From NCBI GenBank assembly GCA_963281255.1, contig OY725493.1, positions 495,550 to 559,549 on the forward strand: a stretch of 64,000 nucleotides of DNA, in the 5' to 3' direction. Numbering within the stretch: position 1 is the stretch's first letter; each line of letters starts with the position of its first letter. A program made the position numbers and the translations under genes. The DNA comes from Aphrocallistes beatrix. Its lineage: Eukaryota; Porifera; Hexactinellida; Sceptrulophora; Aphrocallistidae. Positions 44,680-47,712 of this stretch are shown here, piece after piece. The notes beneath the pieces were generated by a model that worked only from the letters and a program-made list of their open reading frames with translations, was not told where the DNA came from and did no database searches.

Positions 44680-47600
44680 ATGGCATCGATTATTCAAAGT
44701 ATCTCACAGCGCAAAAGAGACACCTATGTACCAAACGAATACTCCATGATGAGTCTGCCGAGATCCTTACACGAAGCTTACAAGTTGCACTTGTCTCGAA
44801 ATAAGCATCCCGCTATGAAGATGTTCGGTAGCAGCATACAAGCTCACCGTTCTTGTAACGAGGCCATTCTCTTCCTCTACGGAATAAGCGGAGCTGGAAA
44901 ATCACAGACGCTGAACCATTTGTTTGATTCAGAACTAATTCTCACATCTGATAGTAAATCCTGCACAGACTCAGTGACAGAGTGGGTGAGCACCTTCGCT
45001 AGCGAATATTGGAAGGTGTCCAATCTGGAAGTGGGGTTCATAGACGTTCCTGGCTGGGGAGATTCGCTAGGAAGGGACGCAGCTAACCTTTCTCTCATCC
45101 AACACTTTCTCACTATTCATCCCATCCTCGGCTCCAAAATTCGTAAATTCTATCCCAACATTGTCCTCCTTGTATTCAACTCAAATGACAATCGAATGTT
45201 TGGTGATGAATCGAGAGCTCAGAAAATGCTCCAAGTCCTTTCCAAACTGAACATCGTGGATAAGAAGCATCCTAACGTTGTGATTGTACTCACTCATGTC
45301 TGTTCACATCCAGTTGATGAATTTGAAGAGATCCTCCAAAAGTTGGGGGATCGTTACCAGCAGCTGTCGCGTTCATGTCTGGGTGTGAGTCCTCCTGTTG
45401 TATGGCTAGAGAACAACCCTAGGTATCGGTTGGAGAAGAGTGGAGAATGGACTCTTTTGTATGATGGAACAGCTCAGCCATTGAACTTGTATAATGCGAT
45501 CATAAAGTTAATGACAGACGCTCAAGATGAATTAGGGAAGGAAGCCATCCGTCTTTACTTTAAAGATCTAGCATCGAATCCTCCAAAGAAAAGACTGATA
45601 GTTGATTCTATGAGTATTAATTCTAAACTCCGCACTAAGTTAGAATATATATGGCGTGAGGAGATAAGCGAAAAAACAATACACCCAAAATCTACAAAGC
45701 TAACCACCCACTTGTGCAAATATGTAGAAACTCATTCAGATCCTAAATTGAAAGAAAGTGAGATTCAAGGCTTACTTCTCGCTCTAAACTGCACAACTAG
45801 TTTCCACGATGTTGAAAGTATTGAAGGAAAACCACTTTCTTTTGTCCAAGATCAGCTGTTACCTTATCCATTGACTGTAGATGAGAAGGTTCTGCTCGTA
45901 AGAGCGTTAAGACTAGAGATTCCAGACATTCCTGCATGCTTAAATACCTTGGGTAGAGGATATGATGTTTTGAAGGAAGAGATCTGTTCCCCAGGAATTT
46001 TTGAATTCTCGAAATCAGAATATTTCGATTCGTTTCTAAATTGTTTTGTTTCCAAATCTCTGACTATCTATCCCTGCAAATCAAATCGAATAACTTTTGG
46101 AACACTTGACAGTGATACGTCAAAGATTGCTGAATTAACCAAAGCGCAGAATGAATCTAATAAAATATATACGAATATATATATAAGGCTGGTTCTTTCC
46201 CAATCTGAGATTCAAAGCATTCTACCATTATTTTGGGTAGAAACTGGTATTTTTATGGCGCAACTAAATATTCCACACCTCACACTGACAACAGAATTTC
46301 GTGACGTCATCAATTCTCTCCCTCAACTTTCTCTCGATGAAGCTGGACAAATTAAGAAAGAATTCTCAGATTTGTTCGAGAAGTACGGGCACTTTGCTAT
46401 AATCAAAGCGACAGGTGGTGGGTTAATAGAAGGTAAACTCAAAATCAGTAAAGTTCCTTCTCTTGCTGAATATATTTCAAGAGTAGAATCAATGCTTGAT
46501 TTGTATAATAATCTCATTTTGGAAGGAAATAATTGGAGACAATTTAAAGAAGATCTACCAGCTGATGATGTTCTTGTGTTGGAGGAACTAGATTCAGCTC
46601 CTCTACTCTGGTTCGCAGGAAACAAAGACTTTACTTCTAAAACTCTCAAAGAAATGTCGTATGAAAGTTATTCAAACTGGCTCAAATCTCTCAAAAGCTC
46701 TTCTATTTTCTTTGATTATTCTTTCAACTTAGTTCCTATACATCTTCTAGCACAGAATGTCAATCCTGAAGCAGCCAATCAAATCAAAATCTCTTTCGAA
46801 TCCTTACTCACAGATGAAAATACTAGCCGGTATTATGGTGAAGATGATATTGACTTAAAATGTTTAGGAAGTGAATTAGAAAAGTTAGAATTCCCAATCG
46901 AGCCAATGGGATCCCCTGCAAAAATATCTGGGTCTAGAGTCATATCTAAACACATAAATACTAAAACAAAAGTGATCCCCAAATCTCCTAAAAAAAACCA
47001 AACTCCTAAAATCCCACCAGATCGGGAAAATGCTGCTGAAAATGACAAAACAAACATCAACTTCTTGGAAGCCACATGCTTTCCAGCTGACTCCTACGTT
47101 GAACTGAAAAACGGAAATCACATCAGAATGAAAGAGCTACAGATCGGAGACTATGTCCTGTCTCTAGATTCACGAACTGGAAGGTCTGTCTATTCCAAGG
47201 TGTTCATGTGGGGACACTTTGATCCTGACCTATCTGCCACTTTCATTGAGATTCACCATGAAGAGGGAGTTCTACGCATATCAGAGAACCATCTCTTGAT
47301 GCATGGTCGTGACAGGAGTTTCACGACTGCTGCTAACATTAAGGAAGGGGATACTGTCCATCACTTCCAGCGATCAGACAGTTCTCTCGAAACCTATCGA
47401 CTGAGTGAAATCGAGGTTAAATCCATAAATCGTTGCGAGTTGGTAGGAGTATTTGCTCCTTTCACTCACAACAGTCTTCTAGTCGTGGATGGATTGGTTT
47501 GCAGTGCTTTCGGTATTCTAGACACATCCATTTCTCAGTTGGAACTTTTTGAGAAGATGAGTAGGATTTGTATGAGTCCAATCTGTTTGATGGATCGCAT

Positions 47601-47712
47601 GGGATTAGCACAGAAACTAAAGAATCCGTTGAATGATACCACAAAGATACATTGGTATGCAGAACTTCTGCTTCGTTTGTATCATCTTTTCCATCTCAAG
47701 GCTTTTTTCTGA
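44680..47712 (+). CDS. GTPase-MACPF-Hint protein, member F, intact
   Basis: A single-exon, 1010-residue protein. The ATG is shared by all members with an intact 5' end, and no signal peptide or membrane span is seen at the N-terminus. The G domain (about 60-330) has G1 GISGAGKS 68-75, G3 DVPGWGD from 122, and G4-like LTHVC 204-208, without the usual Asp. The MACPF-like domain (about 390-715) has LGRGYDVLKEE 424-434, INSLP, FEKYGHFAIIKATGGG 566-581, FAGNKDF 645-651, and WLKSLKSSS followed by the SFNLVPIHLLA helix (681-691). A Lys/Pro/Ser-rich linker covers 740-797. The Hint/Hog domain has Cys800 in ATCFPAD, SENH with His871, and GVFAPFTHNSLLVVDG 923-938; a tail with IHWYAELLLRL 990-1000 resembles the sterol-recognition end of Hedgehog. 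Expected behaviour is self-cleavage before Cys800, releasing GTPase-MACPF residues 1-799, possibly lipidated. GTPase and Hint are strong; MACPF is likely; the role is inferred. Confidence 0.88.
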   Translation: MASIIQSISQRKRDTYVPNEYSMMSLPRSLHEAYKLHLSRNKHPAMKMFGSSIQAHRSCNEAILFLYGISGAGKSQTLNHLFDSELILTSDSKSCTDSVTEWVSTFASEYWKVSNLEVGFIDVPGWGDSLGRDAANLSLIQHFLTIHPILGSKIRKFYPNIVLLVFNSNDNRMFGDESRAQKMLQVLSKLNIVDKKHPNVVIVLTHVCSHPVDEFEEILQKLGDRYQQLSRSCLGVSPPVVWLENNPRYRLEKSGEWTLLYDGTAQPLNLYNAIIKLMTDAQDELGKEAIRLYFKDLASNPPKKRLIVDSMSINSKLRTKLEYIWREEISEKTIHPKSTKLTTHLCKYVETHSDPKLKESEIQGLLLALNCTTSFHDVESIEGKPLSFVQDQLLPYPLTVDEKVLLVRALRLEIPDIPACLNTLGRGYDVLKEEICSPGIFEFSKSEYFDSFLNCFVSKSLTIYPCKSNRITFGTLDSDTSKIAELTKAQNESNKIYTNIYIRLVLSQSEIQSILPLFWVETGIFMAQLNIPHLTLTTEFRDVINSLPQLSLDEAGQIKKEFSDLFEKYGHFAIIKATGGGLIEGKLKISKVPSLAEYISRVESMLDLYNNLILEGNNWRQFKEDLPADDVLVLEELDSAPLLWFAGNKDFTSKTLKEMSYESYSNWLKSLKSSSIFFDYSFNLVPIHLLAQNVNPEAANQIKISFESLLTDENTSRYYGEDDIDLKCLGSELEKLEFPIEPMGSPAKISGSRVISKHINTKTKVIPKSPKKNQTPKIPPDRENAAENDKTNINFLEATCFPADSYVELKNGNHIRMKELQIGDYVLSLDSRTGRSVYSKVFMWGHFDPDLSATFIEIHHEEGVLRISENHLLMHGRDRSFTTAANIKEGDTVHHFQRSDSSLETYRLSEIEVKSINRCELVGVFAPFTHNSLLVVDGLVCSAFGILDTSISQLELFEKMSRICMSPICLMDRMGLAQKLKNPLNDTTKIHWYAELLLRLYHLFHLKAFF

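Follow-up and report, generated by a model that had tools for sequence, protein, structure and literature searches.

Fusions of a GTPase to a Hint domain have been described before. GIN1 of Glomus mosseae is such a fusion and has no signal peptide (PMC2362128); an AIG1-Hint protein is on record from a snail (PMC7053062), and CARD-AIG1-HINT proteins from lancelets and fungi (PMC12373286). Here we describe a gene of the glass sponge Aphrocallistes beatrix, P0001, lying in a window of 64,000 nucleotides of contig OY725493.1 ("the window" always means this whole stretch), which encodes a GTPase domain, a MACPF domain and a Hedgehog-type Hint in this order. It belongs to what is probably a glass-sponge family in which, to judge from the sequences, a Hedgehog-type module stands where a sister clade has a prenylation signal.

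In the literature collection searched, no paper joins Hedgehog and a Hint domain with MACPF, MACPF and a GTPase with CAAX, or a Hint domain and a GTPase with pore formation; among further papers listed, none describes the fusion in its title or the opening of its abstract. A term search of the Oopsacas minuta genome paper and the A. vastus paper gave no mention of such proteins.

Domains of the window protein and its family

P0001 is a single intact open reading frame (ORF) of 1010 residues, and the landmarks that the initial annotation had read in it are present; the domain order is supported as well. The Hint matches PF01079 over residues 798-1002 (115.2 bits, E 4e-33, Pfam cut-off 29.7) and carries Cys800, SENH at 868-871 and GVFAPFTHNSLLVVDG. 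The middle part, with the landmarks LGRGYDV (424-430), FEKYGHF (566-572), GGG (579-581), FAGNKDF (645-651), WLKSLK and VPIHLL, matches MACPF (PF01823) over residues 527-691 with 22.6 bits (E 1.3e-4), barely over the cut-off of 21.5. MMR_HSR1 at residues 66-177 reaches 21.6 bits, barely under its cut-off of 21.9, and AIG1/GIMAP (PF04548), for which Pfam asks 27 bits, scores 19.6. Pfam finds no Hedge signalling domain in P0001, where the GTPase and MACPF domains stand instead; the first 40 residues are not hydrophobic, and none of the seven family members checked has a hydrophobic N-terminus. NCBIfam and PADLOC profiles gave only matches that were weak or far under cut-off.

These domains recur together in so many other proteins that P0001 must be seen as part of a family. 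A whole-genome protein search (100.5-Mb assembly, 28 contigs) gave at least 62 matches to P0001. Ten relatives (P0006 and P0008-P0016) are 44-47% identical to it over 97-99% of its length, and a profile of 42 family sequences, searched against the PDB, matches perforin-1 at E 2.5e-9 and Drosophila Hedgehog at E 3.7e-25, the latter match extending into the C-terminal HWY region; because of these relatives and profile matches, we consider the fusion to be more than a chance one. GTPase, MACPF and Hint also occur together in 15 further single frames on three other contigs of the same genome. The initial annotation knew of no described protein with this order; other proteins share it, so that P0001 is not a lone fusion but a member of a large family.

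In the genome slices whose ORFs were mapped, the architectures are GTPase-MACPF-Hint, GTPase-MACPF-(degenerate Hint)-Hint, Hint-less GTPase-MACPF, and concatemers. The degenerate first Hints lie directly ahead of a canonical second Hint in the C16 and C4 arrays (L015-L019, L022-L023), and the longest concatemer is a single frame of 3630 residues in which five GTPase-MACPF units follow one another at intervals of about 2121 bases (C12:1024151-1035040; L010-L011 and the start of L012). Concatemer-like GTPase-MACPF units were also seen on C2. All 25 Pfam Hint matches of the genome lie within or beside loci of this family, as do 33 of its 35 MACPF matches; outside the family loci that were read, MACPF matches lie at C16:202605 and C15:3403249. 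The sole Hedge-type signal-domain match in the genome (29.9 bits) is on C1.

Relatives elsewhere were sought with the family profile (41 matches, from the 8000 candidates sharing most words) and with one Hint as query (16 matches), and according to their domain maps all of them bear domains of the GTPase-MACPF-Hint family. The six relatives with a named source (LOD99_10591, 10593, 14082, 14043, 16130 and 16129) all come from Oopsacas minuta, a hexactinellid sponge. No Hint relative was found in viral contigs, and prokaryote genomes gave one weak match of 45 residues only.

The identity of the middle domain as MACPF, proposed from its landmarks, is supported by Pfam and by the family profile. 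PF01823 is found at E<=0.01 in 33 of 42 family members (best 6.2e-14); among five relatives, four score over the cut-off (37.1, 36.7, 26.5 and 27.0 bits) and the fifth, with 19.7, below it. Besides perforin-1, the profile of 42 sequences picks up complement C6 at E 4.7e-6 and, at 3.8e-5, an insecticidal protein of Gram-negative origin, and the profile of the C12 clade alone matches perforin-1 at E 3.9e-6. The search gave 66 PDB chains at E<=10; among the 60 that were listed, 23 align best in the MACPF region, and 22 of these are MACPF-type (5 at E<=0.001), the remaining one (E 0.16) not. The MACPF signature is YGTH...GG; P0001 has YGHF followed by GGG, and YGT[HQ]...GG is present in six rows, all of the CAAX clade described below.

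Two kinds of C-terminal end

A C-terminus of the form C-x-x-X (the CAAX box) is a prenylation site. P0001 itself ends in KAFF and has no such box, and among 55 Hint-bearing rows (18 from the genome, 37 from elsewhere) only two have a cysteine at -4, both ending in lysine, unlike a CAAX box. Of the Hint-less genome ORFs whose MACPF end was read, 11 of 20 end in C-x-x-hydrophobic and nine otherwise. These CAAX-ended genes are not scattered: in a tree of 87 GTPase domains a single branch (support 99/96) parts 22 CAAX rows from 65 others, which are Hint-bearing, concatemeric or neither, and mostly Hint-bearing, so that all 22 CAAX-ended genes (17 from the same genome and five, P0035-P0039, from other assemblies; in four cases the gene is divided between two ORFs and its label was assigned manually) fall on one side. 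A smaller tree, with 17 CAAX rows against 65, gives the same split (98/97). Six ORFs on C1 had been predicted beforehand to be Hint-less and CAAX-ended, and all six are so (CYIL, CYIL, CVLL, CTFI, CAIL and CVLF); one of them is P0041, already known, and the truly unread ones number five. By the CAAX rule, the ends of this sister clade are probably prenylation sites. A broader formulation, that all Hint-less members are CAAX-ended, was tried and is false, given the members with neither Hint nor CAAX.

The two kinds of end appear to be attached to the same tail. CAAX tails have in common a block TR-x-x-A-[ST]-x-x-x-K (RK-x-A in one subgroup) about 11-17 residues ahead of the cysteine. We built a position matrix on 16 of these blocks and scanned 59 Hint-bearing rows with it. 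In 31 of them the single best match lay no more than 30 residues before Cys1 of the Hint, at a distance of 17-20 residues (27 of 54 when five genes read twice are each counted once). A thousand column-shuffled matrices gave a mean of 5.1 rows and a maximum of 21, none reaching 31. The positive rows span four lineages of the tree. Two members with tandem Hints have their best match ahead of the degenerate Hint that comes first. Many Hint and CAAX proteins thus share, as far as their sequences can tell, a tail that ends in either the CAAX cysteine or the Hint nucleophile, and on this tail the cysteine that would accept the prenyl group would therefore occupy the same place as the predicted nucleophile of the Hint.

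What, then, is the Hint itself like? We aligned 67 distinct Hint rows to Drosophila Hedgehog and set 11 aside (nine degenerate first Hints and two fragments). In the 56 canonical ones Cys1, Ser/Thr69 and His72 are present in 56/56, the C400 place is Val or Ala in 56/56, and position 46, the general base Asp in Hedgehog, is His in 56/56. The nine degenerate first Hints have lost Cys1 in six cases and kept it in three, and have lost the Ser/Thr and position-46 residues in all nine. In the sterol-recognition region (SRR), the canonical Hints keep the His of HWY in 53/56, its Trp in 7/56 and its Tyr in 55/56; in the first helix (H-xx-F-x-P-x-R) the first His is kept in 25/56, the F377 place is Met, Phe or Leu in 56/56, Pro is found in 53/56 and Arg in 37/56. 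P0001 has HWY, and its first helix reads Arg/Met/Pro/Cys.

SRR residues, HWY included, are needed by human Sonic hedgehog (PMC7242414). D303 of Hedgehog is the general base for the sterol: another study reports that its alanine mutant cleaves with thiol and does not attach cholesterol fully, and that an engineered D303H stays active and takes additional sterols (PMC9163320). It is this mutant structure, 6tyy, that scores above wild-type 1at0 in the three queries matching both (36.0 vs 31.2, 78.7 vs 71.5 and 57.7 vs 50.9 bits). The description of the domain as a Hedgehog-type Hint must accordingly be adjusted: a Hint and an SRR-like region are both there, but it is not of the plain type, having His for the general-base Asp and Ala or Val at the C400 place.

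Copies and neighbouring genes

Table 1. Features of the 64,000-nucleotide window; residue numbers are those of P0001
Feature	Position	Strand	Remarks
GTPase-MACPF-Hint gene P0001	44680..47712	+	single uninterrupted open frame, ATG 44680 to stop 47712, 1010 aa
GTPase domain, residues 25-300	44752..45579	+	G1 GISGAGKS 68-75, G3 DVPGWGD 122-128; septin/Toc/GIMAP-type matches
MACPF domain, residues about 380-720	45817..46839	+	Pfam match 527-691 = 46258-46752
Fast-changing hinge, residues 721-796	46840..47067	+	high dN/dS against two window copies; low identity to relatives
Tail motif DRENAAENDK, residues 781-790	47020..47049	+	counterpart of TR..A[ST]...K block in CAAX tails
Hint core, residues 797-945	47068..47514	+	
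Cys800, predicted nucleophile	47077..47079	+	Cys1/C258 of Hedgehog
His846	47215..47217	+	at place of Hedgehog general base Asp46/D303
SENH 868-871	47281..47292	+	TxxH motif
Sterol-recognition-like region (SRR), residues 946-1010	47515..47709	+	HWY 991-993 at 47650-47658
Tandem copy in two ORFs	38412..41477	+	first ORF (38412-39455) with the GTPase, second (39483-41477) with MACPF and Hint, separated by one in-frame stop
Tandem copy with MACPF and Hint	34955..37537	+	
Truncated tandem copy	41796..42832	+	only the GTPase part, divided over two ORFs
Hint-less tandem copy, 801 aa	10820..13225	+	GTPase + MACPF, no CAAX end
Remnant copy	8771..10030	+	GTPase fragment 8771-9157, Hint fragment 9749-10030
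Roc GTPase-C-terminal caspase genes	2131-6162 and 29127-32466		low-complexity repeat between domains; second copy split over two frames
AIG1 GTPase cluster, downstream	56508-63816		some with hydrophobic C-terminal tail by eye
Helitron-type element	21674-27505	-	PIF1 helicase + OTU domains
RASAL-like gene	48755-55233		exons with C2, RasGAP, PH domains
TATG repeat, 314 bases	51014-51327		

Rates of change (dN/dS, the ratio of nonsynonymous to synonymous divergence, and dS) were obtained for P0001 against four nearby copies in the window. The GTPase has a dN/dS of 0.34-0.38 and the MACPF domain one of 0.34-0.46. In the hinge the ratio rises to 0.87 and 0.79 when P0001 is compared with the two Hint-bearing copies, but a third copy, over 49 codons, gives 0.26; the mean identity of the hinge to eight relatives is 0.21. 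The Hint gives dN/dS of 0.45 and 0.41 against the Hint-bearing copies, with a dS of only 0.045 and 0.088, vs 0.34 for MACPF in the same pairs, which fits what is expected from gene conversion of the Hint between copies.

Another exchange may have affected the partner gene (C11; P0019, P0020, P0022 and P0023), which has neither Hint nor CAAX end. In the MACPF tree (which has only five CAAX rows owing to a length filter, and carries a long-branch warning) the partner genes form their own clade with support 100. Their GTPase domains fall elsewhere: that of P0020 goes with the Hint gene P0016 and that of P0023 with P0012, and those of P0019 and P0022 are placed among P0008 and P0013-P0015. The partner GTPases thus have mostly Hint genes from their own contig as neighbours in the tree, as gene conversion would make them do; the contig of each of these four equals in length that of such a Hint gene. 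In P0016/P0020 and like pairs the GTPase domains are close and the MACPF domains distant, which we read as gene conversion limited to one domain. The partner gene may encode a second subunit. We also considered the partner genes as recent Hint losses, and rejected this, their MACPF domains forming one clade.

Of the other genes in the window, the Roc-caspase gene matches Roc at 3.3e-10 and caspase at 1.6e-45, and the genome has in total 58 caspase and 91 AIG1 matches, some of the latter within the GTPase-MACPF-Hint family. A role in defence or cell death is supported by these Roc-caspase and AIG1 neighbours, though not proved by them. A Helitron-type element, a RASAL-like gene and a TATG repeat lie in the window too (Table 1); Rfam (at gathering cut-offs) and tRNA scans of the 64 kb found nothing.

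Proposed function and comparison with known systems

We think, with moderate confidence, that P0001 is a cytosolic, membrane-acting GTPase-MACPF protein whose own Hint would give it a sterol-like lipid at the C-terminus, doing the job of a prenyl group. What the sequences themselves provide are the domains, the conserved residues, the homology of the tails and the CAAX/Hint split. Lipid attachment would be the most economical function for the Hint and a sterol the likeliest lipid. By Hedgehog chemistry, Cys800 would attack the carbonyl of Thr799 to form a thioester. The SRR would hold a sterol or a comparable alcohol, which His846 would activate in lieu of Asp46 and which would take the acyl group; the GTPase-MACPF part would then depart, its flexible tail ending in a sterol ester, and the Hint would be discarded. 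The lipid would then play the role of the prenyl group of the sister clade, whose same tail ends in a CAAX box. The domain families and the neighbouring genes further suggest that the anchored GTPase, in its GTP state, would assemble on a membrane and that the MACPF domain would insert into it or remodel it; defence inside the cell, or cell death, would be the likeliest setting. That lipid might be attached had already been suggested, and the suggestion is strengthened by the CAAX sister clade, the common tail and the SRR residues.

Several observations weigh against this interpretation and should be acknowledged. The CAAX-clade profile matches perforin-1 at only 0.12, with dynein light chain ahead (0.068) in the same region, although P0039, a member of that clade, reaches 36.7 bits with Pfam MACPF. 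The G4 motif of the GTPase is LTHVCS and not NKxD. D303 and C400 of Hedgehog are both missing (His, and Ala or Val), the window clade has Arg for H374 and Cys for R381 in the first helix of the SRR, and the residue preceding Cys800 is Thr, not Gly. Nine of the 20 Hint-less ORFs from the genome lack a CAAX end too (the partner gene, concatemers, and copies without a joined Hint), and the same is true of P0019, P0020, P0022 and P0023. Lastly, the best tail-motif match is not ahead of Hint Cys1 in 28 of the 59 rows (elsewhere in 26).

The alternative that fares best, and one that we still regard as unlikely, is that the MACPF domain forms no pore. The protein would then serve as a scaffold, a GTPase anchored by its lipid, that shapes membranes or acts in adhesion, in the fusion of cells or at the plugged junctions found in the syncytial tissue of glass sponges. 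Some MACPF proteins are indeed not pore-formers, the six named relatives all come from a glass sponge, and there are weak astrotactin matches (E 0.18 and 0.66 with the family profile, 0.22 and 0.73 with the CAAX-clade profile); however, the many tandem and broken copies, the homogenised domains and the immune-type neighbours fit a defence family better.

The initial annotation had drawn a parallel with the release of gasdermins. On such a reading, cleavage by the Hint, or by a caspase at the hinge, would free a pore-forming N-terminal part from an inhibitory C-terminal domain, and no lipid would be attached. The Hint is C-terminal, behind a fast-changing hinge, and Roc-caspase genes lie in the same window, yet we find this scenario rather improbable. 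It is unsupported because the CAAX clade, which has the same GTPase-MACPF body, ends in its CAAX box and has no C-terminal domain to remove; moreover, the SRR is retained though it would be needless for release alone, and the family's other end device is a lipidation signal.

We would give only a slight chance to the idea that the Hint is no longer an enzyme but a folded binding remnant, its catalytic residues kept by gene conversion. The low dS between the Hints of the window copies (against that of MACPF) and the existence of degenerate first Hints in tandem-Hint members speak for it, but Ser/Thr69 and His72 accompany Cys1 in every canonical Hint, across several assemblies and lineages, while six of the nine degenerate first Hints have lost Cys1 and all nine the Ser/Thr and position-46 residues. 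Finally, that neighbouring genes were read as one frame through an assembly or gene-prediction artefact is scarcely credible, for although several copies are broken, the same three domains stand in the 15 other single frames on three further contigs and in other assemblies, including that of O. minuta.

It stands at about an even chance, in our view, that this family represents a second natural kind of protein sterylation in glass sponges, an intracellular one, in which Hints with a His base would sterylate GTPase-MACPF effectors at the position of the prenylation cysteine of their sisters, so that two chemically unlike lipid anchors would stand in for one another among related membrane-attacking proteins. 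Such natural His-general-base Hints could be a source of enzymes for sterol labelling, possibly with a wider substrate range.

How does the family compare with known proteins? Its likeness to perforin-1, complement C6-C9, pleurotolysin B and the Gram-negative insecticidal protein lies in the MACPF domain, by Pfam and by the PDB profile. These proteins (perforin-1, complement, pleurotolysin B and the insecticidal MACPF proteins) are secreted or extracellular; the members of the P0001 family that were checked have no hydrophobic N-terminus, and the family adds a GTPase as well as an end of the lipidation type. Guanylate-binding proteins are GTPases that, where they have CAAX boxes, are lipid-anchored and act on membranes in cell-autonomous defence; they have no MACPF and no Hint, and belong to a different GTPase family.

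GIN1, the snail AIG1-Hint protein and the CARD-AIG1-HINT proteins resemble P0001 in that a GTPase of the immune type precedes a Hint or Hog domain at the C-terminus, but the parts of their descriptions available to us mention neither an intervening MACPF nor a CAAX counterpart; the GTPase of P0001 is under the Pfam AIG1 cut-off. In the present family the CAAX counterpart predicts lipid attachment, and the role of orphan Hint proteins such as AIG1-Hint would therefore become directly testable. With the Hog domain of Hedgehog (Drosophila 1at0 and 6td6; D303H 6tyy) the family has in common Cys1, TxxH, the length of the Hint, and an SRR with H-x-Y and Pro. It differs in having His for Asp46 and Ala or Val for C400, in the absence of a Hedge domain, and in its N-terminal part, a GTPase-MACPF protein without a hydrophobic N-terminus. 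The interest of the comparison is that a Hedgehog-related device is here found on a GTPase-MACPF protein with no signal peptide-like start, in the place of a sister clade's presumed prenylation signal.

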